Positions 4,818-16,653 of a stretch of 46,867 bases of DNA are shown here, piece by piece. Every line of letters begins with the position of its first letter. The first letter of the stretch is position 1. The notes beneath the pieces are model-generated. The model made no database searches. It had not been told where the DNA came from and saw only the letters and a list, made by a program, of their open reading frames with translations. The position numbers were made by a program, and so were the translations under genes. The stretch comes from Peloplasma aerotolerans (GTDB lineage Bacteria; Bacillota_I; Bacilli_A; Acholeplasmatales; Acholeplasmataceae), in assembly GCF_030012175.1 (NCBI RefSeq), contig NZ_JASCXW010000015.1, positions 1 to 46,867 of the forward strand, written 5' to 3'.

Positions 4818-5703
4818 AGATGAACATTTTGATTATTTCGTTGAAAAATATCCAAAAATAACTTTCGAAAGCAATATAGAAAATGCATACGATGCTGACG
4901 CAATCTTTTGTATGCCAGGAATTGCTATTAAAAATAAACTAGAATTATTTCCAAATTTGAAGTGGATTCAATTATTGACCGCAGGATATGATCCTGTAGA
5001 TGTCGATTATATACACCAAAGAAACATAGTGTTAACCAATGCAAAGGATGTCTTTAGCATCCAAATTGCAGAGGATGTCATTTCCAAGATTTTGTATTTC
5101 AATAAAAACATAAAAGCTTATGCAAAACAAATGGAAAATGGACTTTGGAAACACCATAAAGTCGATTACGAAATCTCATTATCAACTATAGGGATTATTG
5201 GAACAGGCTCTATTGGTCTAGAAGTTGCTAAAAGATTAAAAGCATTTGAGACAAATGTTGTTGGTTATAAAAGAACAAGAGTAGACTTACCTTACTTTGA
5301 TAAAATATATTATGGTAAAGAAGGACTACATCAAGTCTTAAAAGAAAGCGATTATGTAATCATCTCACTACCCCTTAATAAAAATACTTATCATCTCATC
5401 GGGAAAAAAGAACTAGAAATGATGAAACCAAGTGCATTACTAATCAATGTGGCAAGAGGTGATATCATTAATCAAGATGCTTTAGCAGAAGCACTAAGCA
5501 AAAAAACGATTAGAGGAGCTGGGTTAGATGTAACCTCTCCGGAACCCTTACCAAGTAATCATCTTCTATGGAAATTAGACAATGTCTTCATTACACCTCA
5601 CAATTCTAGTTCGGGACCTTACATGATTCATAGATTAATTGATGAGGTCGATGATACTTTAAAGAGATATATAAACGAGCAAGAACTAGATAATACGATT
5701 TAG
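4786..5703 (+). CDS. D-2-hydroxyacid dehydrogenase
   Basis: NAD(P)-dependent reduction of a 2-ketoacid to a D-2-hydroxyacid, in the phosphoglycerate/glyoxylate/lactate dehydrogenase family. 305 aa. The Rossmann motif GTGSIG is at residues 139-144; the catalytic triad is visible as R224 ('NVARGD'), E253 ('SPEPLP') and H272 ('TPHNSS'). A strong AAAGGAGG lies 7 nt before the ATG. It is the last gene of the 743-5703 operon and is followed directly by a hairpin terminator. The natural substrate cannot be deduced; no serine-biosynthesis genes accompany it, so it is unlikely to be SerA. Confidence 0.88.
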   Translation: MKIWIDMTMLKDEHFDYFVEKYPKITFESNIENAYDADAIFCMPGIAIKNKLELFPNLKWIQLLTAGYDPVDVDYIHQRNIVLTNAKDVFSIQIAEDVISKILYFNKNIKAYAKQMENGLWKHHKVDYEISLSTIGIIGTGSIGLEVAKRLKAFETNVVGYKRTRVDLPYFDKIYYGKEGLHQVLKESDYVIISLPLNKNTYHLIGKKELEMMKPSALLINVARGDIINQDALAEALSKKTIRGAGLDVTSPEPLPSNHLLWKLDNVFITPHNSSSGPYMIHRLIDEVDDTLKRYINEQELDNTI

Positions 5704-5711
5704 CACGTAGT

Positions 5712-5736
5712 GCCTATGATATATCATAGGCTTTTT
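5712..5736 (+). terminator. Rho-independent terminator of the zwf operon
   Basis: Perfect palindrome GCCTATGATATATCATAGGC (5712-5731) directly followed by TTTTT (5732-5736), 9 bp after the stop codon. Confidence 0.9.
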
Positions 5737-5772
5737 AAATTATGTTAAAAAACCGTTTACATTTTAAAAATG

Positions 5773-5800
5773 TTGACATAATCTTAATATATGATAGAAT
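5773..5800 (+). promoter_or_regulatory. Promoter of the acc-fab operon
   Basis: TTGACA (5773-5778), 16-bp spacer, TAGAAT (5795-5800) with an upstream TG (5792-5793) making an extended -10. Predicted start near 5807, leaving a leader of about 260 nt before accB. Confidence 0.8.
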
Positions 5801-5806
5801 AAATGC

Positions 5807-6066
5807 AGGTATATTCTTTGAATTTCAAATCATTTGAAATGCAAAGCGAAAGGGGTGCTGCTTCAAGCAATGGAATGGTAGTTTATTTCGTTGATTTAGA
5901 GGGGATTATTTTTTGAAACATACTCGATAAATAAACTGTCATTTGAGTTTTAAACATCTTAAATACTATCTAGTCTAATCAAGACGATTTGAACACACCT
6001 TACAGATAGATTTTCGGTGAAGAAATGATTTAAAAAAACAAATGAAAAGTGAAATGGTACATATAT
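5807..6066 (+). promoter_or_regulatory. Structured 5' leader of accB
   Basis: Gene-free stretch of about 260 nt between the acc promoter and accB. It holds a long hairpin at 5816-5846 (CTTTG/CAAAG outer stem, one mismatch, then ATTTCAAAT-C-ATTTGAAAT), a pairing AGTTTATTT (about 5880-5888) with AAATAAACT (about 5930-5938) enclosing ~40 nt, and a small hairpin GTCT-AATCA-AGAC near 5973-5985. No terminator-like U-run was seen inside. It does not match a riboswitch class that I recognise. The accB ribosome site is weak, so translation control through this leader is plausible. Confidence 0.45.
5817..5829 (+). promoter_or_regulatory. FabT-like operator
   Basis: TTTGAATTTCAAA, a perfect inverted repeat TTTGA-N3-TCAAA about 10 bp downstream of the predicted start site. 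Known FabT (MarR-family, acyl-ACP-dependent fatty-acid repressor) sites of streptococci and lactococci have this half-site pair with the same 3-bp centre. A further TTTGA half-site follows at 5833, and a one-mismatch copy TTTGA-GTT-TTAAA lies at 5942-5954. No fabT gene is in the window, so the regulator is inferred. Confidence 0.5.
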
Positions 6067-6513
6067 ATGACAATTAAAGAAATACAAAACATCATCAAAG
6101 ATTTCGAGAGTTCATCTTTGATGTCTCTTGAACTGGAAATGGATAATTTTAAATTAAGACTCTCGAAAAATAAGGACAACCATATTGTTGTCAATGGAGA
6201 ATCAAAAGAAGAGGACAATGGAAAACAAACTAACAGTCAACAAGCTCAGTTAAAACAAAACAATCAAAACGTTATTCAATCACCACTCGTAGGAACCTTT
6301 TATGCATCTGCTACACCTAACGGAAAACCTTTCGTTGAAGTTGGTCAGCAAGTTAAAAAAGGTCAAGTCGTGTGTATTATAGAAGCGATGAAAATTATGA
6401 ACGAAATAACATCCCCTTTTGACGGTGTCATTAAGGAAGTTTTTGTGCATAATGGTGAAGTCGTTGGATATAATCATACACTGATGCGTGTCGGTGACAA
6501 AAATGAAAAATAA
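6067..6513 (+). CDS. accB: Biotin carboxyl carrier protein of acetyl-CoA carboxylase
   Basis: Carries biotin between the carboxylase and carboxyltransferase sites during malonyl-CoA formation. 148 aa. The N-terminus 'MTIKEIQNIIKDFE' matches the AccB start; a Gln/Asn-rich linker spans residues 45-70; the biotinyl domain (71-143) carries EAMKIM with the target lysine K109. The open frame extends upstream to a GTG at 6049, but family alignment favours ATG 6067. No clear Shine-Dalgarno precedes it, unusual here and compatible with leader control. First gene of the accBCDA-fabHDGFZ-birA operon; its end overlaps accC by 11 nt. Confidence 0.93.
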   Translation: MTIKEIQNIIKDFESSSLMSLELEMDNFKLRLSKNKDNHIVVNGESKEEDNGKQTNSQQAQLKQNNQNVIQSPLVGTFYASATPNGKPFVEVGQQVKKGQVVCIIEAMKIMNEITSPFDGVIKEVFVHNGEVVGYNHTLMRVGDKNEK

Positions 6514-7867
6514 AATATTAATCGCGAATCGTGGCGAAATTGCGGTTCGTGTGATTCGTGCAGCAAAAGAACTTGGAATTGAAACGGTTGCCGTGTATTC
6601 AACAGCCGATGAAACAAGTTTGCATGTTAAGTTAGCAGATGAAGCAATCTGTATCGGTGGAAATCAAAGTAAGCAAAGCTATTTAAATATGAATAGCGTG
6701 TTAAGTGCTGCAATTTCTACAGGGTGTAATGCAATTCATCCGGGATATGGATTTTTATCTGAAAACAGTGAGTTTGTTGAAATGGTTGAAAGATGTAATA
6801 TTATATTTATTGGTCCTAAGTCAAAGACAATAGGTCTTATTGGTGATAAAGCATCAGCAAGAAAAATCGCTAAAGAAAATGGTGTGCCCATTGTAGAAGG
6901 TAGCGATGGAGTGGTTGAAGATGTCCATGAAGGACTAAAAATAGCTAAAAAAATAGGATACCCTGTTATGATCAAAGCTTCAAGTGGTGGCGGAGGTCGT
7001 GGCATTAGTATTGTGCGCTCAGACGAGGAGTTTATGGGTGCTTTTGAGCGTACCTCTATGGAAGCGGAGACAAGTTTTGGAGATAAAGCTTTATATATCG
7101 AGAAATTTATTGAATCTCCAAGACATATAGAAGTTCAAATCATGGCAGATACGAAAGGCAATGTTGTCCATTTATTTGAACGAGATTGTTCAATGCAACG
7201 CCGAAATCAAAAAATGATCGAAGAAGCACCATCTCCTGTTTTAAATGATATCTTAAGAAGAAAAATTGGTGCAGCATCAATCAAACTCGCAAAAGCAATT
7301 GATTATGTAAATGCAGGGACGATGGAGTATATCGTGGATTCTAAAGGGAATTTTTATTTTATTGAAATGAACACAAGAATTCAAGTAGAACATCCCGTCA
7401 CTGAAGCGATAACTGGTATTGACTTAGTTAAAGAGCAAATCAAAGTTGCTTACGGAAAAGAGTTGTCATTTAAACAAAGAGACATTAAGATCAATGGCCA
7501 TGCTATTGAATGTAGAATCAATGCGGAAAATGCCATGAAAGGATTTATTCCTACACCAGGTAAAATCAACAATATTTTATTTCCTGGTGGCTTAGGTATT
7601 CGTATTGATACCCATATTTATCCTGGGTATGAAGTACCTCCTTTTTATGATTCTATGATTGCAAAACTTATTGTCCATGCCCCAACGAGAAGAGAAGCGA
7701 TTAAAAAAATGCGTGTTGCACTCGAACAATTTGTTGTAGAAGGAATCGCAACGAATATTGAATATCAATATTTAATTATGCACAATCCTGACTTTATCAA
7801 AGGTCAGTATGATACTGGGTTTATAGCTCGCTTCAATGTATTAGTGGAGGCAGAGAATCGTGAATGA
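6503..7867 (+). CDS. accC: Acetyl-CoA carboxylase, biotin carboxylase subunit
   Basis: ATP-dependent carboxylation of biotin on AccB. 454 aa, normal length. N-terminal 'ANRGEIAVRVIRA' (8-20), ATP-grasp glycine-rich loop SGGGGRG (161-167), 'ERDCSMQRRNQK' (226-237) and the catalytic/metal region EMNTRIQVEHPVT (288-300). An in-frame GTG at 6488 exists, but ATG 6503 fits both the family N-terminus and the GGTG ribosome site at 6493. Overlaps accB upstream and accD downstream (8 nt), so subunits are translationally coupled. Confidence 0.96.
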   Translation: MKNKILIANRGEIAVRVIRAAKELGIETVAVYSTADETSLHVKLADEAICIGGNQSKQSYLNMNSVLSAAISTGCNAIHPGYGFLSENSEFVEMVERCNIIFIGPKSKTIGLIGDKASARKIAKENGVPIVEGSDGVVEDVHEGLKIAKKIGYPVMIKASSGGGGRGISIVRSDEEFMGAFERTSMEAETSFGDKALYIEKFIESPRHIEVQIMADTKGNVVHLFERDCSMQRRNQKMIEEAPSPVLNDILRRKIGAASIKLAKAIDYVNAGTMEYIVDSKGNFYFIEMNTRIQVEHPVTEAITGIDLVKEQIKVAYGKELSFKQRDIKINGHAIECRINAENAMKGFIPTPGKINNILFPGGLGIRIDTHIYPGYEVPPFYDSMIAKLIVHAPTRREAIKKMRVALEQFVVEGIATNIEYQYLIMHNPDFIKGQYDTGFIARFNVLVEAENRE

Positions 7868-8744
7868 TTTTTTAAATGATCGTAAAACTAAATTAGAGGA
7901 TTTTAAAAAAAATATCCGCAAGAAGCAAACAAATTATGAGCCAATCGATATTCCTGATGGCTTGTTTGTTAAATGCGAGCATTGTGGTGCAGCTATTTAT
8001 GAAAAATCATTAGAGGCAAATCATTCGATTTGTCCTTATTGTGAATTTCATTTTAGAATGGGTGCATTTAAAAGACTTGATTTAACAGTTGATCAAGGAA
8101 GCTTTCAAGAAATTGATCAAATGATTATGTCTTCGAATCCCCTAGATATGCCTGATTATCCTGATAAGATAAAAAAAGGCAAGAAATTATCTAAAATGAA
8201 TGAAGCATTTCTTAGTGGAACAGCAACCATCGTTGGTCTACCTTGTGCAATCGGTATATTGGATAGCAATTTCATGATGGGAAGTATGGGAAGTGCTGTT
8301 GGTGAAAAAGTAACTAGATTAATAGAGTATGCTATGAAACAAAAATTGCCACTCATCATTTTCTCAGCTTCAGGTGGAGCACGTATGCAAGAAGGTATTT
8401 TATCATTAATGCAAATGGCAAAAACAAGTGCTGCACTTCACTATTTTGATCAAAGAAAACTACTATATATCAGTGTTTTAACAAACCCAACAACTGGTGG
8501 TGTAGCTGCAAGTTTCGCTTCATTAGGCGATATCAATATTGCTGAAAAGTCATCACTTATTGGCTTTGCGGGAGCAAGAGTTATTAAACAAACGATTAGG
8601 CAAGATTTACCAGATGGTTTTCAAACTGATCAATTCCAACTTGACCGTGGTCAAGTCGATATGGTAGTTCACCGTAAAGATATGAGGAAAACCTTGTATA
8701 AATTACTACAACTTCATCTAGAAAGAGGTGAAAAGCATGAGTGA
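7860..8744 (+). CDS. accD: Acetyl-CoA carboxylase, carboxyltransferase beta subunit
   Basis: With AccA transfers the carboxyl group from biotin to acetyl-CoA. 294 aa. The N-terminal zinc ribbon has four cysteines (C39, C42, C58, C61; 'CEHC' and 'CPYC'). The crotonase-like core shows 'SASGGARMQEG' and 'NPTTGGVAASFASLGD', the oxyanion-hole regions. The start is GTG at 7860, supported by GGAGG at 7846-7850 with 9-nt spacing; it overlaps the accC stop by 8 nt. The end overlaps accA by 8 nt. Confidence 0.95.
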   Translation: MNDFLNDRKTKLEDFKKNIRKKQTNYEPIDIPDGLFVKCEHCGAAIYEKSLEANHSICPYCEFHFRMGAFKRLDLTVDQGSFQEIDQMIMSSNPLDMPDYPDKIKKGKKLSKMNEAFLSGTATIVGLPCAIGILDSNFMMGSMGSAVGEKVTRLIEYAMKQKLPLIIFSASGGARMQEGILSLMQMAKTSAALHYFDQRKLLYISVLTNPTTGGVAASFASLGDINIAEKSSLIGFAGARVIKQTIRQDLPDGFQTDQFQLDRGQVDMVVHRKDMRKTLYKLLQLHLERGEKHE

Positions 8745-9576
8745 AACGAATACAGCTTGGCAGAAAGTCAAACTCGCTAGACACCCTAAACGACCTACCA
8801 GTCAATATTTAATTAAGGAATTATTTACTGATTTTATTGAATTACATGGTGATCGAGGATTTGGTGATGATTATGCAATTATTGGTGGTATTGGAACGAT
8901 TAACAGTATTCCAGTAACAATTATTGCTGAAGAAAAAGGCGTTACGACTGAGGAAAAAATCAGGCATAATTTTGGAATGCCACACCCTGAAGGCTATCGC
9001 AAAGCGATACGTTTAATGAAACAAGCAGAAAAATTTAATCGACCGATTATTTGTATCATTGATACACCAGGTGCTTATCCAGGTATCGGTGCAGAAGAAC
9101 GTGGTCAAGCACAAGCGATTGCTTATAACCTAAAAACGATGATGGGTCTAAAGACCCCAATTATTGTAGTTGTATTAAGTGAAGGTGGATCCGGTGGGGC
9201 ACTAGCCATTGGTGTTGGTGATCAAGTTTTAATGTTTGAAAATAGTATTTACGCTATTTTATCACCAGAAGGATACGCATCCATTATTTATAAAGACAGT
9301 TCGAAAGCAGATCATGCTGCTAGTATTATGAAATTAACCGCACAAGACCTTTTAGGTTTTGGTGTTATTGATACCATTGTTCCTGAAAATGAGGGACTAC
9401 ATATTGATCCTGATTTTGGAATAAAAGCACTAAAAAAAGAATTAACAAAATCTATTACAAAACTATCCAAACTTTCTACATCTAAATTATTAGATCAAAG
9501 ATATCAAAAATATAGAAAGATGGGTGTGTTTGTCGAACAAGGAGAAGACAATGAAAGCAAACCAACCAATGGTTAA
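8737..9576 (+). CDS. accA: Acetyl-CoA carboxylase, carboxyltransferase alpha subunit
   Basis: Partner of AccD in the carboxyltransferase. About 279 aa, somewhat shorter than the E. coli form (319). Recognisable stretches: 'ELHGDRGFGDD', 'NFGMPHPEGYRKA', 'IDTPGAYPGIGAEERGQ' and 'SEGGSGGALAIGVGD'. ATG 8737 is chosen over the upstream in-frame GTG 8728 because AGAGGTG (8724-8730) would overlap the latter. Its C-terminal end overlaps fabH by 26 nt, with the fabH ribosome site inside accA. Confidence 0.95.
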   Translation: MSETNTAWQKVKLARHPKRPTSQYLIKELFTDFIELHGDRGFGDDYAIIGGIGTINSIPVTIIAEEKGVTTEEKIRHNFGMPHPEGYRKAIRLMKQAEKFNRPIICIIDTPGAYPGIGAEERGQAQAIAYNLKTMMGLKTPIIVVVLSEGGSGGALAIGVGDQVLMFENSIYAILSPEGYASIIYKDSSKADHAASIMKLTAQDLLGFGVIDTIVPENEGLHIDPDFGIKALKKELTKSITKLSKLSTSKLLDQRYQKYRKMGVFVEQGEDNESKPTNG

Positions 9577-10489
9577 AGTTATTTCAAGTGGAAAGTATGC
9601 ACCTTCTACATTGATAACTAACGAAGACCTAGAAAGATTAGTTGATACATCAGATGAATGGATTGTTACCCGTACAGGAATAAAAACTAGACATCGTGCA
9701 GTAGACGAAACAACCAGTGATATGGCATACAAAGCTGCTATGGAAGCGATTAATCGTGTAAATTATGATAAAGATAAAATTGATTTGATTATTATGGCAA
9801 CCATTACTGGTGACCAAATGACACCAGCAACAGCAAATTTCGTACAAGCTAAGTTAGGATTAAATCATGAAGTGATGAGTTTTGATATTAATGCTGCATG
9901 TACAGGTTTTGTTTATGCACTAGAAACTGCTGCATCCTTATTACAAACAGGAAGATTTAGAGCTGCATTAGTTATTGGCGGCGAACAGTTAACCAAAATT
10001 GTTGACTACACAGATCGTAACACATGTGTCTTATTTGGTGATGGTGCTGGAGCAATGATTTTAGAACCCTCAACGCATGAAAGAAATCAAGCATTTTTCT
10101 TTAATGCAGCAAGAGGAGATACAAATAATACTTTAACTGTAGTTAATCATATCAAAATGGATGGTAAGCGTGTCTATTTATTCGCTATTGATGCTATGGA
10201 GCAAGCAATACGTAAAGTTTTAGAATCCTCTGGTTTAGCGATTGAAGATATTGATGTGATTATTCCACATCAAGCAAACGAACGAATTATTCAATCTGTT
10301 TCTAAATCAATGGGTATTCCAATGGATAAATTTATGTTAAACTTAAGTGAATACGGTAATACTTCAGCCGCAAGTATTCCGATTACAATCGCTGAATATT
10401 ATGATCAAAATGAAGTAAAAAATAAAAAAATATTGTTGGTTGCATTCGGTGGCGGATTTACATGGGGTAGTGCAATACTACAATTGTAA
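9551..10489 (+). CDS. fabH: 3-oxoacyl-ACP synthase III (FabH)
   Basis: Condenses acetyl-CoA (or a branched acyl-CoA) with malonyl-ACP to begin fatty-acid chains. 312 aa. The Cys-His-Asn triad is visible: C117 in 'INAACTGF', H240 in 'IPHQANERI', N270 in 'YGNTSAAS'. The frame is open upstream to 9524, but AAGGAGAAG (9539-9547) places the start at ATG 9551; an in-frame ATG at 9569 would give the more standard FabH N-terminus. Primer preference (straight or branched) is not readable with confidence. Confidence 0.95.
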   Translation: MKANQPMVKVISSGKYAPSTLITNEDLERLVDTSDEWIVTRTGIKTRHRAVDETTSDMAYKAAMEAINRVNYDKDKIDLIIMATITGDQMTPATANFVQAKLGLNHEVMSFDINAACTGFVYALETAASLLQTGRFRAALVIGGEQLTKIVDYTDRNTCVLFGDGAGAMILEPSTHERNQAFFFNAARGDTNNTLTVVNHIKMDGKRVYLFAIDAMEQAIRKVLESSGLAIEDIDVIIPHQANERIIQSVSKSMGIPMDKFMLNLSEYGNTSAASIPITIAEYYDQNEVKNKKILLVAFGGGFTWGSAILQL

Positions 10490-10499
10490 GGATTGAATC

Positions 10500-11444
10500 A
10501 TGAAAAAATTAGCTTTAGTATTCGTAGGTCAAGGTAGTCAATATTTAAATATGGGTCTTGATTATGTTGATATGTTTCCAGAATTGAAAGAAAAAGAAGG
10601 GATTGCATCAAAACTTTTAGGTTATGATGTAAGAAACATGCTATCTTCTACTGATGGAAAAATCAATGATACAAGATATACTCAACCTTTAATGATGTTA
10701 GCAACCATTTTTGCTTATGAAGCTTTTTTAAAACTCAATGTAGAAGTTGATGCAGTTGCGGGGTTTAGCCTAGGCGAACATGGTGCATATTATGCTGCTC
10801 AAGTATTCAATTTTGAGCAAATCATGAAAATAGTTGATTATCGAGCTCAACATATGCAGACATGTGCCATAAATCATCCAGGTAAAATGGCTGCAATCAT
10901 TGGATTAAATAAAGAATTAGTTGATCAAGCATGTCGCGAAGCAGCAGATCAAGGTATTGTTGTAAGTGCAAATTACAATTCACCTGTTCAAGTTGTTATT
11001 AGTGGCGAAGAAAAAGCAGTAATAAAGGCAATGGAAATTGCAAAATCATTAGGAGCTAAACGTGCTTTAGAACTTAATGTCAGTGGTGCTTTCCATTCAC
11101 CATTAATGAAACAAGCAGCAGATCAAGTTTATGAATTTATTAAAAAAGAAAGTTATCAAGAACCCACTGTCCCACTTTATATGAACACAACAGCAAAACC
11201 TCTCGAATCATCAAAGCTTTTTGATGAGATGAGAAAGCAAATTCAATCACCTGTTTATTTTGAACAAATGATTAACCAGATGATTGAAGATGGTATAACC
11301 CATTTTGTAGAAATAGGACCAGGAACAGTTTTAAGTGGACTCATCAAAAAAATTAATATGAATGTAGAAGTAACTCATCTAGATCAGGCGAGTGAATTAG
11401 ATTCATTGAAAGGATGGTTAAGCGACCATGAATTTAGAAAATAA
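10500..11444 (+). CDS. fabD: Malonyl-CoA:ACP transacylase
   Basis: Loads malonyl groups from CoA onto acyl carrier protein. 314 aa. It has the N-terminal 'FVGQGSQ', the nucleophile motif GFSLGE with S90, and the catalytic His H199 in 'GAFHSPLM'; 'FVEIGPGTVLSGL' is the typical C-terminal block. Starts 10 nt after fabH with AAGGAT upstream, and ends overlapping fabG by 17 nt. Confidence 0.95.
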   Translation: MKKLALVFVGQGSQYLNMGLDYVDMFPELKEKEGIASKLLGYDVRNMLSSTDGKINDTRYTQPLMMLATIFAYEAFLKLNVEVDAVAGFSLGEHGAYYAAQVFNFEQIMKIVDYRAQHMQTCAINHPGKMAAIIGLNKELVDQACREAADQGIVVSANYNSPVQVVISGEEKAVIKAMEIAKSLGAKRALELNVSGAFHSPLMKQAADQVYEFIKKESYQEPTVPLYMNTTAKPLESSKLFDEMRKQIQSPVYFEQMINQMIEDGITHFVEIGPGTVLSGLIKKINMNVEVTHLDQASELDSLKGWLSDHEFRK

Positions 11445-12171
11445 AGTTGCAATCGTTACTGGAGGAGCTGCTGGAATCGGTAGATTCATTTCCTTAGAAC
11501 TCGCTAGACGAGGCGCAAAAGTCGTTTTAAATTACAATAGAAGTGAACAAAAGGCAAACGAACTCGTTGAAGAAATCAAAGCATTCGGTGGACAAGCGTA
11601 TGCTGTACAAGCAGACATCTCAAACTATGAAGATGCTGAAAGACTAGTCAAAGAAGCTATTAGCAAGTTTGGGACTTTAAACATTGTGATTAACAATGCA
11701 GGTATCACTGATGATGCATTAATCTTAAGAATGAGTGAAGATCAATTTGATCGAGTTATCAATACGAACCTAAAAGGTGTATGGAATGTATCAAAACATG
11801 CAGCAAAACCATTGCTCAAATCTGGTTATGGAAGAATCATTAACATATCAAGTGTTTCTGGTGTTTTAGGAAACGCTGGACAATCTAATTATAGTTCTGC
11901 GAAAGCAGGTGTCATTGGTTTAACCAAAGCACTAGCAAGAGAATTCGCATCTCGTGGTGTCACTGTCAACGCGGTTGCCCCAGGATTTATCGAAACAGAA
12001 ATGACCAAAAAATTATCTCAAGAAATCTCAGATGCGTGGAGCAATCAAATTCCACTAAAACGTTTTGGTCAATCCGAGGAAGTTGCATATGCAGTATGTT
12101 TCCTAGCAAGTGAAGAAGCAAGTTATATAACTGGCCACACCTTAGAGGTTGATGGCGGATTAGTGATGTAG
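11428..12171 (+). CDS. fabG: 3-oxoacyl-ACP reductase (FabG)
   Basis: NADPH-dependent reduction of 3-oxoacyl-ACP, first reductive step in FASII. 247 aa short-chain dehydrogenase. Cofactor motif TGGAAGIG (11-18), 'NNAG' (89-92), catalytic S142, Y155 and K159 in 'SNYSSAKAG', and the usual ending 'EVDGGLVM'. The operon context between fabD and fabF separates it from general SDRs. The start lies within fabD, 17 nt before that gene's end. Confidence 0.95.
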   Translation: MNLENKVAIVTGGAAGIGRFISLELARRGAKVVLNYNRSEQKANELVEEIKAFGGQAYAVQADISNYEDAERLVKEAISKFGTLNIVINNAGITDDALILRMSEDQFDRVINTNLKGVWNVSKHAAKPLLKSGYGRIINISSVSGVLGNAGQSNYSSAKAGVIGLTKALAREFASRGVTVNAVAPGFIETEMTKKLSQEISDAWSNQIPLKRFGQSEEVAYAVCFLASEEASYITGHTLEVDGGLVM

Positions 12172-12179
12172 GTGAAAAT

Positions 12180-13418
12180 ATGAAAAAAAGAGTTGTTGTA
12201 ACAGGAATGGGACTCGTAAGTCCTGTAGGAAACACGGTTGAAGAATCATTTAAAAATTTAGTTGAAGGAAAAAATGGTATTGACTTCATCACACTTTATG
12301 ATGTTGAAACATGGAAAGTTAAAATTGCAGGAGAAGTCAAAAACTTAAATTTCGAAGATTTTCTTGATAAAAAAGAAATTAGAAGAAATGATCGTGTGAT
12401 GAATCTTGCATTAGTCGCTACACATGAAGCTTTTGAACAATCAAAACTTGATATTAGTCAACTCAATCCCTTTAGAGTCGGGACTTTCATTGGTAGTGGT
12501 ATTGGTGGACTAACGACGATTTTTGAAGAAACAAAAGTAAGCGTAACCCGTGGACAAGATCGAATATCTCCATTTTTCATACCTAACTCAATCATCAATC
12601 TTATTGGTGCGAAAATAGGTATCAAATATCAAGCAAAAGGACCTAATATGCCTCAAGTCACTGCTTGTTCAGCAGCAACCAACTCCATTGGTGAAGCATT
12701 TAGATACATTAGAGATGGTTATATAGATGTCGCAATCACTGGTGGTTCTGAAGCACCTATAAATGAACTTGGATTAGGTGGATTTTCAAGTTTAAAAGCT
12801 TTGAATTTCTCAAACGATCCAAATGCTGCATCAGTTCCATTTGACACCAGAAGAACAGGTTTCGTCATTGCAGAAGGCGCAGGCACATTAATCTTAGAAG
12901 AATATGAACATGCAAAGAAAAGAAATGCTCCTATTTTAGCTGAAATGGTTGGATATGGGACGACATCTGACGCATTCCATATGACAGCACCAGATGAAAA
13001 TGCTGAAGGTATTGAAATGTGTTTAAGACTTGCTATGGAAGATGCTCATATAAAGCCTGAAGAACTTGGTTATATTAATGCGCATGGTACATCAACTGTT
13101 TTAAATGATAAATATGAAACATTAGGCTTTAAAAAAGCGATGGGTGATGCTGCTTATCAAGTGAGTATTAGCTCAACGAAGTCTATGACAGGACATGCTT
13201 TAGGTGCTGCAGGTGCGATTGAAACGATTGCTGCTATTATGGCACTTCGAACTAACACAATACCACCAACCATTAATTTAAACTCTCCAGATCCTGAGTG
13301 TGACCTAGATTACACACCACATAAAGCTGTCAATAGAGAATTAAATTATGTGATGAATGTCAACATAGGTTTTGGTGGACAAAATGCAGCTATTATTTTT
13401 AAGAAGGTGAACTCATGA
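12180..13418 (+). CDS. fabF: 3-oxoacyl-ACP synthase II (FabF)
   Basis: Chain-elongating condensing enzyme of FASII. 412 aa. Catalytic residues are seen as C163 ('TACSAATNS'), H302 ('NAHGTSTVLND') and H339 ('GHALGAAGAIE'), with K334 in 'STKSMTGH'. Start at ATG 12180, 9 nt after fabG, with a GGTG ribosome site. The stop overlaps fabZ by an ATGA. It is the only elongating condensing enzyme in the cluster. Confidence 0.96.
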   Translation: MKKRVVVTGMGLVSPVGNTVEESFKNLVEGKNGIDFITLYDVETWKVKIAGEVKNLNFEDFLDKKEIRRNDRVMNLALVATHEAFEQSKLDISQLNPFRVGTFIGSGIGGLTTIFEETKVSVTRGQDRISPFFIPNSIINLIGAKIGIKYQAKGPNMPQVTACSAATNSIGEAFRYIRDGYIDVAITGGSEAPINELGLGGFSSLKALNFSNDPNAASVPFDTRRTGFVIAEGAGTLILEEYEHAKKRNAPILAEMVGYGTTSDAFHMTAPDENAEGIEMCLRLAMEDAHIKPEELGYINAHGTSTVLNDKYETLGFKKAMGDAAYQVSISSTKSMTGHALGAAGAIETIAAIMALRTNTIPPTINLNSPDPECDLDYTPHKAVNRELNYVMNVNIGFGGQNAAIIFKKVNS

Positions 13419-13846
13419 AATTAAATCAAGAAGAAATCAAACAAATTATTCCACATCGTCATCCATTCTTGTTTTTAGATGAGATTATTGAACTTGAAAG
13501 TTTGAAATACGGTGTTGGTGTCAAATATGTCAAAGAAGATGATTACTTTTTTGAGGGGCATTTTCCAGGAAAACCAGTTATGCCTGGTGTTTTAATTATT
13601 GAATCTTTAGCACAAGTCGGTGCAGTTATCTTATTATCAAGTTCAGAATATAAAAATAAAATTGCCTATTTTACAGGCATTCAAAAAGCGAAATTTAGAA
13701 AAAGCGTCGTTCCAGGAGACAAATTAGTCTTAAAGTGTGAATTAACGAAAATTCGTAAATCATTTGGTTTTGGTTTAGCAAGAGCTTATGTCAATGACCA
13801 ATTGGTGTGCGAAGCGGAAATATCTTTTGCCATAGGAGAGTTATGA
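13415..13846 (+). CDS. fabZ: 3-hydroxyacyl-ACP dehydratase (FabZ)
   Basis: Removes water from 3-hydroxyacyl-ACP to give trans-2-enoyl-ACP. 143 aa hot-dog fold protein. 'IIPHRHPFLFLDEI' at the N-terminus and the catalytic motif 'EGHFPGKPVMPG' with H49, followed by E63 in 'IESLAQ'. ATGA overlaps with both fabF before and birA after. The enoyl reductase that should follow in the cycle is not encoded in this cluster. Confidence 0.95.
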   Translation: MKLNQEEIKQIIPHRHPFLFLDEIIELESLKYGVGVKYVKEDDYFFEGHFPGKPVMPGVLIIESLAQVGAVILLSSSEYKNKIAYFTGIQKAKFRKSVVPGDKLVLKCELTKIRKSFGFGLARAYVNDQLVCEAEISFAIGEL

Positions 13847-14376
13847 TATCTTATACATTGCTAGAATTTGATACATTAACATCCACGAGTGATTTTCTTA
13901 AGGAAAATTACTCTTATTTTCCACATATGACATTTATCAAAGCTAGTTATCAATCTCAAGGAAGAGGTCAATATGATAGAACTTGGGATTCCAATCCTAA
14001 AGAGAATCTACTATTTTCTATACTATTAAAAGATATTGGTGTTTCAAAAGCTTATGAAATTAAATTATGGATAATGGAAACACTCGTTCAACACATTCAA
14101 AACCATGGCATTAACGTCTATTTTAAAGAACCCAACGACTTATATGTAGGTGATCAAAAGATTTGTGGTATCTTAATTGAAACCAAATCTTCTGAAAATA
14201 TATTTGATTATGTAGTTATTGGAATTGGTTTAAATATCAATCAAACTGAGTTTGAAAACTTTAGTGCAACTTCAATTAAAAATGAACTTCATAAATCAAT
14301 TGACATTAAGAAACACTTTAATCAGTTATTAAGTTTACTGATTAGTCAATATGAAAAGTATATAAAATTGAAGTAA
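13843..14376 (+). CDS. birA: Biotin--[acetyl-CoA-carboxylase] ligase, catalytic domain only
   Basis: Attaches biotin to AccB through biotinyl-AMP. 177 aa, notably short: there is no N-terminal helix-turn-helix and little or no C-terminal SH3-like domain compared with bifunctional BirA (~320 aa). The catalytic features are present: 'GRGQYDRTW' (40-48), 'KEPNDLYV' (usually KWPND), 'KICGILIE' (107-113 with the key Lys K107) and 'GIGLNIN'. The true start is ATG 13843, overlapping the fabZ stop, with AGGAGAG upstream. Being at the end of the acc-fab operon, it is made together with its substrate protein. It cannot act as a biotin repressor. Confidence 0.9.
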   Translation: MISYTLLEFDTLTSTSDFLKENYSYFPHMTFIKASYQSQGRGQYDRTWDSNPKENLLFSILLKDIGVSKAYEIKLWIMETLVQHIQNHGINVYFKEPNDLYVGDQKICGILIETKSSENIFDYVVIGIGLNINQTEFENFSATSIKNELHKSIDIKKHFNQLLSLLISQYEKYIKLK

Positions 14377-15343: not shown

Positions 15344-15367
15344 CAATCATTATTATATCTTTATAAT
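15340..15367 (+). promoter_or_regulatory. Promoter of the fluoride riboswitch transcript
   Basis: TTGACA (15340-15345), 16-bp spacer, TATAAT (15362-15367). Perfect boxes; predicted start near 15374, immediately before the aptamer. Confidence 0.85.
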
Positions 15368-15375
15368 ATAACACA

Positions 15376-15458
15376 GGGAATGAACGTCTCCCTTAGCAAT
15401 GCTAAAACCGCGCAAGCTAATGACTTCTACAACATTTTTGTTGTTGGAGTCTTTTATT
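15376..15458 (+). ncRNA. Fluoride riboswitch (crcB motif) with terminator platform
   Basis: The leader shows the crcB-motif arrangement: GGGA (15376-15379) pairing with TCCC (15389-15392) around the loop ATGAACGTC, an optional extra hairpin TTAGC-AAT-GCTAA (15393-15405), then AACCGCGCAAGCTAATGACT ending in TCTAC near 15430, which matches the conserved 'GCUUAGCUAAUGACUCCUAC' part of known fluoride aptamers. Loop GAACGTC can pair with GACTTC as the pseudoknot (one bulge). The aptamer 3' strand GACTTCTACAAC is repeated in complement by GTTGTTGGAGTC (15439-15451), followed by TTTTATTT: a classical terminator that fluoride binding would prevent. It controls the antiporter directly downstream. Confidence 0.88.
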
Positions 15459-15474: not shown

Positions 15475-16653
15475 ATGTTACTCAGTGCAGCATTAATTAT
15501 TATGACAAGCTTATTATTAACTCAAATCTTTATCAAACTTAAATTACCTGGACTTATTGGAATGTTGGTTTCAGGTATTATTTTAGGACCATATGTATTG
15601 AACCTTATTGATCCTAGTATTTTAAGTCTATCAACAGATTTAAGACAAATTGCTTTAATTGTTATCTTAGTACGTGCAGGATTATCACTAGACCTAAAAG
15701 ATTTAAATGAAGTTGGTAGACCAGCATTGCTACTATCTTTTATTCCTGCAACGATTGAAATGATTGCGATTATTATATTTGCACCGATATTTTTTCAGAT
15801 TTCATATATTGAAGCAGCCATTTTAGGAGCAATCGTTGCTGCAGTATCACCTGCAATTGTTGTACCAAGAGTGCTAAAGTTAATGAAAACAGGATATGGT
15901 AAAGATAAGAAGATACCACAATTAATTTTAGCTAGTGCATCGATTGATGATGTTTATGTTATTATTCTATTTACATCTTTCATACATGCATATACAACTT
16001 CAACATTTAATTTATTGACCATCTTACTCATACCAATAGCAATTATTTTGGGTGTTTTATTAGGAATAATCATAGGAAGTATACTCGTATGGATCTTTAA
16101 AAAGTTCCATATTAGAGATACGCTTAAAGTGCTTATTATCTTTTCGGCAGCATTCTTACTCATTGTTTTAGAACATATATTATCAAATTATGTTCCTGTT
16201 TCAGGATTACTAGCAGTTATAGTGTTAGGTGGAACTATACTAAAACAATATGATTTACTCGCTCAAAGATTAGTGATTAAATTTGAAAAAATATGGGTTA
16301 TTGCTGAAATTATGTTATTCGTTTTAGTTGGTGCTGCAGTTGATATTCGCGTCTTATCAAGTGTTGGGTTATTTGCTTTCATCCTCATTATGATTGCTAT
16401 AATCTTTAGAATGCTTGGCGTCATCATTGCATTAATTAAATCGAATTTAAACAACAAGGAAAAATTATTTGTAGGATTTGCTTATTCACCAAAAGCTACA
16501 GTTCAAGCAGCAATCGGTGCGATTCCTTTAGCACTTGGTATACCAAGTGGTCATTTAATCTTAAGTATTGCTGTTTTAGCAATCTTAATCACTGCCCCAT
16601 TTGGAGCGATTATGATGGATAGTTCCTACCTAAAATTACTTAAAAATAGCTAA
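15475..16653 (+). CDS. Cation:proton antiporter, fluoride-riboswitch controlled
   Basis: 392-aa membrane protein of the CPA superfamily with about 12 helices. It carries a paired-aspartate motif 'SIDDVYVI' (D158, D159), the ion-binding signature of electrogenic NhaA/NapA-type Na+/H+ exchangers, and a broken-helix motif 'AVSPAIVVPRV' (123-133). It has no RCK or other cytoplasmic domain. AAGGAGAAGG lies 6-7 nt before the ATG. The only upstream promoter feeds through a fluoride riboswitch; Na+/H+ antiporter genes are a known class of fluoride-riboswitch targets, alongside crcB/Fluc and ClC-F. It probably helps the cell survive fluoride, by fluoride export or restoring pH after HF entry; which one is not known. 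Confidence 0.88.
   Translation: MLLSAALIIMTSLLLTQIFIKLKLPGLIGMLVSGIILGPYVLNLIDPSILSLSTDLRQIALIVILVRAGLSLDLKDLNEVGRPALLLSFIPATIEMIAIIIFAPIFFQISYIEAAILGAIVAAVSPAIVVPRVLKLMKTGYGKDKKIPQLILASASIDDVYVIILFTSFIHAYTTSTFNLLTILLIPIAIILGVLLGIIIGSILVWIFKKFHIRDTLKVLIIFSAAFLLIVLEHILSNYVPVSGLLAVIVLGGTILKQYDLLAQRLVIKFEKIWVIAEIMLFVLVGAAVDIRVLSSVGLFAFILIMIAIIFRMLGVIIALIKSNLNNKEKLFVGFAYSPKATVQAAIGAIPLALGIPSGHLILSIAVLAILITAPFGAIMMDSSYLKLLKNS

Follow-up and report, generated by a model that had tools for sequence, protein, structure and literature searches.

Background

Fatty acid synthesis has acetyl-CoA carboxylase as its committed step. The described systems closest to the locus reported here are the FabT regulon, the autoregulation of the Escherichia coli carboxyltransferase, the STAB-SD elements of Gram-positive mRNAs and the orphan structured leaders recovered by comparative screens. 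In E. coli, the carboxyltransferase and its own message form a complex; acetyl-CoA resolves it and promotes the translation of AccA and AccD (PMC3896788). In STAB-SD, a Shine-Dalgarno (SD)-like sequence of the 5' UTR, at which no translation starts, can pair with 16S rRNA, and the bound 30S subunit blocks RNase J1, according to PMC4113751. As for riboswitches, the review PMC9971707 records none for CoA, biotin or lipids, and in PMC8632094 Acholeplasma is mentioned a single time, in connection with a motif upstream of aroF. No riboswitch or leader of the kind described below was found for accB in the open-licence literature searched.

The window analysed here, that is, the whole stretch of 46,867 nucleotides, belongs to the genome of Peloplasma aerotolerans (2.04 Mb in 88 contigs). 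An earlier note had drawn attention to a long structured leader with FabT-like half-sites in this window. That observation is confirmed, and comparison across the genus adds parts that the note did not contain, namely an extended SD-like element, two covarying hairpins (P2 and P3) and a box 5' of the promoter −35 element.

Occurrence of the leader

Of 20 genomes of the genus, 19 gave an accB match and 18 carry the leader, before accB only; of the two without the leader, one (G010) gave no accB match and in the other (G015) accB lies at a contig end, with the leader missing. Named sequences among the close relatives of accB include Acholeplasmataceae bacterium contigs, and no accB relative was seen in viral contigs. 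A covariance model (R1) built from the 18 leaders gave 18 strong matches across 61 relatives, all within the genus, one per genome and each at accB. Since R1 was built from these leaders, their recovery is in part to be expected; the confinement to accB does not follow from the way the model was made, and the R1 search of the 61 relatives found no copy of the motif before other genes. Weak R1 matches (E 1e-4 to 0.1) occurred in 11 further genomes, and the four of these 11 that were inspected (G031, G034, G050 and G022) fall in or across coding genes. A second model (R2), run against 296 genomes of the class, returned two matches, both in members of the genus.

The earlier note knew of no riboswitch class of this shape for acetyl-CoA carboxylase, and the Rfam searches agree with it: no family matched positions 5690–6150 of the window at E up to 5, and the loci of 15 relatives, searched at E up to 0.1, gave only two tRNAs, so that no riboswitch or other cis-regulatory family, the T-box included, was recovered. 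Further accB loci that were printed are organized differently, many with acpP first and some with a short leader. In six of them (L037, L038, L040, L167, L168 and L170) the box-bearing promoter is separated from accB by an acyl carrier protein-like ORF, and the leader is of the ordinary short kind. To judge from these arrangements, the long leader may occur where the operon does not begin with acpP.

Operon, promoter and operator

The acc-fab operon (6067–14376, + strand) consists, by ORFs and families, of accB, accC, accD, accA, fabH, fabD, fabG, fabF, fabZ and a biotin ligase gene (birA), all in one direction. Its first gene, accB (6067–6513, + strand), encodes the biotin carboxyl carrier protein. 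The biotin ligase at the far end (13831–14373) matches the ligase domain from its first residues, and no DNA-binding part was seen in it. Beyond the operon, a fluoride riboswitch at 15367–15436 (37.5 bits; gathering threshold 34) lies directly 5' of an ORF at 15475 that resembles a membrane antiporter.

Upstream, a terminator-like hairpin with a T run (5712–5731, + strand) closes a dehydrogenase gene and sets the acc-fab promoter apart. This is a strong promoter of sigma-A type, TTGACA-16-TAGAAT with TGn (5773–5800, + strand; score 11/12), whose −35/−10 spacing of 16 is kept in 18/18 leaders, and 266 nt separate its −10 element from the accB ATG at 6067. No second promoter is positionally conserved in the 18 leaders, just 5' of accB or elsewhere, the best candidates scoring 8–10 of 12 at scattered positions. 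The untranslated leader of about 260 nt ahead of the entire operon, as first described, is thus borne out.

The box AACCGTTTACA (5751–5761, + strand) lies 5' of the −35 element and has the form A(C/T)CG(C/T)TTACA; its core, CGYTTACA, stands 19–21 bp upstream of −35 in 18/18 leaders. The longer form AACCGYTTACA has three copies genome-wide, and one of the other two precedes a frame that, by reading, appears aldehyde-dehydrogenase-like. The box is possibly an activator site, and we take it to resemble half a CcpA cre site.

Downstream of the promoter, the FabT-type operator TTTGAATTTCAAA occupies 5817–5829. The half-sites TTTGA at 5817, TCAAA at 5825 and TTTGA at 5833 stand exactly where the earlier note placed them, the last (5833–5837) forming a third half-site whose 8-bp spacing is found in 14/18 leaders as read from the printed windows. 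The palindrome TTTGANNNTCAAA itself is present in 18/18 leaders of the genus, the analysis having demanded it in each, and further copies precede fakB-fabT, acpP and a FabK-like gene, so that palindromic operators are found at fab promoters; genome-wide, palindromes of the operator type number 18, versus 9 for the reversed control. The assignment uses an exact FabT consensus that we presume to be the correct one.

A candidate regulator is encoded on another contig (G000:C60), by a gene for a MarR protein whose best match is the FabT family NF050133 (E 1.7e-32; 112.6 bits against an NCBIfam cut-off of 200) and whose best PDB relative is 6jbx, a fatty acid biosynthesis transcriptional regulator (E 2.3e-21). 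At this locus (L124, 39–1377) a FakB-like DegV gene is followed by the FabT-like MarR gene, and a palindromic box lies at 1366, at their promoter; judged by these likenesses, the pair would link fatty acid uptake with the repressor. Because TTTGANNNTCAAA is kept in 18/18 leaders and the FabT-like gene sits beside the FakB-like gene with a box of its own, the FabT control of the acc-fab promoter that we infer is well supported, and the proposal of a FabT-like operator gains from this gene and its box as well as from the boxes before acpP and the FabK-like gene. A FabT protein would be expected to bind such a site, the more so in the presence of acyl-ACP.

The operator bases could also form a 5'-terminal RNA hairpin, P1 (5816–5846, + strand; pairs 5816–5820 with 5842–5846 and 5822–5829 with 5833–5840), as had been proposed. 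P1 can be folded in each of the 18 leaders, with differing outer pairs; the advantage of own over permuted pairing is modest (497/20000 permutations as low, with relatedness uncorrected), and the double use of these bases as DNA operator and RNA hairpin is therefore weakly supported.

Two hairpins conserved by compensatory change

Taken as a single sequence, the leader folds with ordinary energy (−46.7 kcal/mol, z −0.64; 49/200 shuffles as low), and it is only by comparison, through the compensatory changes that keep P2 and P3 in the 18 leaders, that hairpins stand out beyond chance. The "several hairpins" of the earlier note therefore hold for P2 and P3, and find no backing in single-sequence energy. 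P2 (5874–5943, + strand) has an outer helix pairing 5874–5883 with 5934–5943 and an inner helix of variable sequence, and it covaries strongly. P3 (5955–6019, + strand) has the form CAUC-UU-AAA...UUU-UC-GGUG with a variable apical hairpin; its closing CAUC is invariant in the 18 leaders, the partner strand is nearly so, and covariation lies inside. Both hairpins appear in individual folds as well as in the RNAalifold prediction on the alignment, where 12/22 predicted pairs show changes on both sides. In the covariance-model alignment, which was fitted to the structure, 16/22 pairs show such changes, 92.7% of cells are paired versus 24.1–52.5% for slid controls, and the covariation score is 0.504 versus 0.03–0.13 with slid partners.

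Permutation of strands among leaders, a procedure that ignores relatedness, gave the same picture. The P2 outer helix pairs at −13.3 kcal/mol with its own strand and at about −6.8 with foreign ones, P3 at −6.3 and −3.5 kcal/mol, respectively, and none of 20000 permutations reached the own value in either case, or in the inner part of P2 and the apical part of P3. Under a tree-aware null, in which column changes were simulated on the accB-accC tree, 370/391 cells are paired versus 254.8 +/- 21.3 expected (maximum 312 in 1000 simulations), and 12/22 pairs reach P <= 0.016; the alignment behind this test was made by hand with registers picked for pairing, a bias in favour of the structure. A scan of 466 window pairs on a plain MAFFT alignment, in which no structure was presupposed, gave the windows of P2 and P3 the highest ranks, with z between −8.4 and −4.4. 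Conserved pairing in relatives, with compensatory change beyond phylogeny, is thus present, and P2 and P3 are selected RNA hairpins whose shape is kept while the letters change. That P2 keeps shape rather than letters fits a structural role, and the invariant CAUC of P3 with its near-invariant partner could be a recognition site.

In alignment A2, columns 32–48 (before the SD-like element) and 152–168 (the P2–P3 linker) also pair better with their own than with permuted partners (z −3.8), possibly as a further helix or as an effect of relatedness.

An extended Shine-Dalgarno-like element without a start codon

Between the operator (or P1) and P2 stands the conserved sequence GAAGGGAGUGNUGC, an extended SD-like element (here GAAAGGGGTGCTGC, 5848–5861, + strand; genus consensus GAAGGGAGTGNTGC) with no start codon at usable spacing; by sequence, most leaders have none at a working distance. 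All pairing energies below refer to the usual bacterial 16S end as an assumed anti-SD, as a search for the 16S 3' end in the genus gave no match. With this end the element is complementary to the 16S 3' terminus and is the best anti-SD site in 14/18 leaders and second best in two (L005 and L008); in L003 and L026 it is weak, at best about −7.4 and −6.3 kcal/mol. The accB start itself is preceded by a conserved GAAAAGTGAAATGG (6044–6057, + strand), a weak ribosome-binding site. As the earlier note had remarked, accB has no clear ribosome site: the 22 nt before its ATG pair at only −4.7 kcal/mol, against −5.7 to −10.3 kcal/mol for accC, accD, fabH, fabD, fabG, fabF and fabZ (a comparison covering the operon genes other than accA and birA), and the accB-proximal site ranges from −2.9 to −5.6 kcal/mol in all 18 leaders. 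An in-frame GTG at 6049 was rejected as the accB start because L005 has a stop in the same stretch.

The same layout recurs in eight of eight accB leaders from outside the genus (L019, L020, L145, L146, L147, L021, L035 and L171, of which L020 and L145 are near-identical), where the best site again lies a long way 5' of the gene, at −11.5 to −14.4 kcal/mol, and the one next to accB is weaker (−2.9 to −7.9). R2 found no match in these eight leaders at E up to 10, and the likeness that can be claimed is therefore one of layout rather than homology.

Possible functions of the leader

The reading that we favour, tentatively and at somewhat less than an even chance, is a post-transcriptional role for the leader, in which a STAB-SD-like dock for the 30S subunit would combine with hairpins to stabilise the long mRNA or to adjust its translation. 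A FabT-like repressor on the palindrome at 5817–5829 would control the single promoter of the operon, and the resulting mRNA would begin with a possible P1, the startless extended SD, the covarying P2 and P3, and then the weak accB site. A 30S subunit would dock on the extended SD as in STAB-SD of Gram-positive mRNAs, and the docked subunit and the hairpins would shield the long mRNA from 5'-end decay, limit accB translation, or both; P2 and P3 would then serve as shields or form a control domain. Since STAB-SD by itself needs neither P2 nor P3, the conservation of these hairpins suggests a further role.

A rival reading is a ligand-sensing riboswitch, in which P2–P3 would control accB translation in response to CoA, acetyl- or malonyl-CoA, or biotin. 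Such a sensor might look like the RNA seen here, which has two conserved hairpins, an invariant base to P3 with pyrimidine-pyrimidine mismatches beside it, and a place ahead of the genes for the committed step of the pathway; the want of known riboswitches for CoA, biotin or lipids is a real gap as well as a warning. P2, however, conserves shape and not sequence, unlike a typical aptamer core, and neither usual mode of switching is apparent: no terminator-like site lies on the + strand within the leader, and no alternative pairing that would hide the SD found support, 2630/20000 permutations being as low for the SD with the 3' strand of P3. We regard a riboswitch as unlikely.

Autogenous control, in which an operon protein such as the AccA-AccD carboxyltransferase with its zinc finger would bind P3 or P2 and repress translation, seems to us rather improbable. 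It has its precedent in E. coli, the conserved foot of a hairpin in a structured leader would suit a protein site, and accD is clear here, its translation containing a CxxC...CxxC segment; the E. coli carboxyltransferase site on the acc mRNA, however, lies in the coding region and not in a leader. A more far-reaching form of the sensing readings, quite unlikely in our estimate, would make P2–P3 a new metabolite- or protein-sensing RNA class that sets acetyl-CoA carboxylase synthesis, for example as the first natural RNA to sense CoA esters or biotin; it would work in concert with a FabT operator, the bases of which would double as its 5' hairpin.

The absence of an SD at accB would be explained if the extended SD were a landing site from which the 30S subunit crossed or bypassed P2 and P3 to reach the accB start, and the combination of a strong SD-like element with a weak site at accB, seen both within the genus and in the eight outside leaders, is in keeping with this. 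The distance speaks against it: in the 14 leaders in which the SD is the best site, 166–206 nt separate the end of the SD window from the ATG, and even with both hairpins skipped about 70 nt of single strand remain (an estimate by reading), which makes a landing site distinctly improbable. Attenuation through a leader peptide or upstream ORF is very improbable. A GTG right after the SD core does open frames of 3 to 21 codons in 15/18 leaders, but this start would fall inside the SD duplex, the variable base of the next codon is its first position and not its third, the frames of L005 and L007 stop after three codons, and L003 and L026 have no frame; a conserved short ORF with coding-type variation is not seen, the frames look non-coding, and the attenuator was rejected. 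That only the FabT operator matters and the rest of the leader is spacer, as the ordinary single-sequence energy might suggest, is hardly tenable, being already contradicted by the compensatory changes that 18 species show in P2 and P3.

Comparison with known systems

The conserved structured leader on the acc-fab mRNA, placed over a FabT-type operator, is a concrete RNA in which to probe post-transcriptional control of the pathway, and if the startless SD element is the working part, the STAB-SD idea would extend to a core metabolic operon. With the FabT regulon of Streptococcus, Enterococcus and Lactococcus the locus shares a palindromic operator at the promoter of acc-fab, further boxes ahead of acpP and of a FabK-like gene, and, as a putative FabT homologue, a MarR-type protein. 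It differs in that the fabT-like gene lies outside the acc-fab operon, on another contig and next to a FakB-like DegV gene, and in its long structured leader, which is absent from the available text of the FabT descriptions PMC9083066 and PMC13046290. Like the orphan structured leaders that comparative screens of bacterial intergenic sequence have turned up, this one is restricted to a genus, covaries and precedes a single downstream gene, whereas no motif listed 5' of accB was found in Rfam or in the literature searched. The autoregulation of the E. coli carboxyltransferase likewise involves post-transcriptional control of acetyl-CoA carboxylase genes, but its site is in coding mRNA, and here the structured RNA is the 5' leader of accB. 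STAB-SD of the cry3A type in Gram-positive bacteria shares with this leader an SD-like sequence in the 5' UTR with no usable start codon after it; here, by contrast, the element stands behind a possible 5' hairpin and ahead of two covarying hairpins, and stabilisation of the acc-fab mRNA is predicted.
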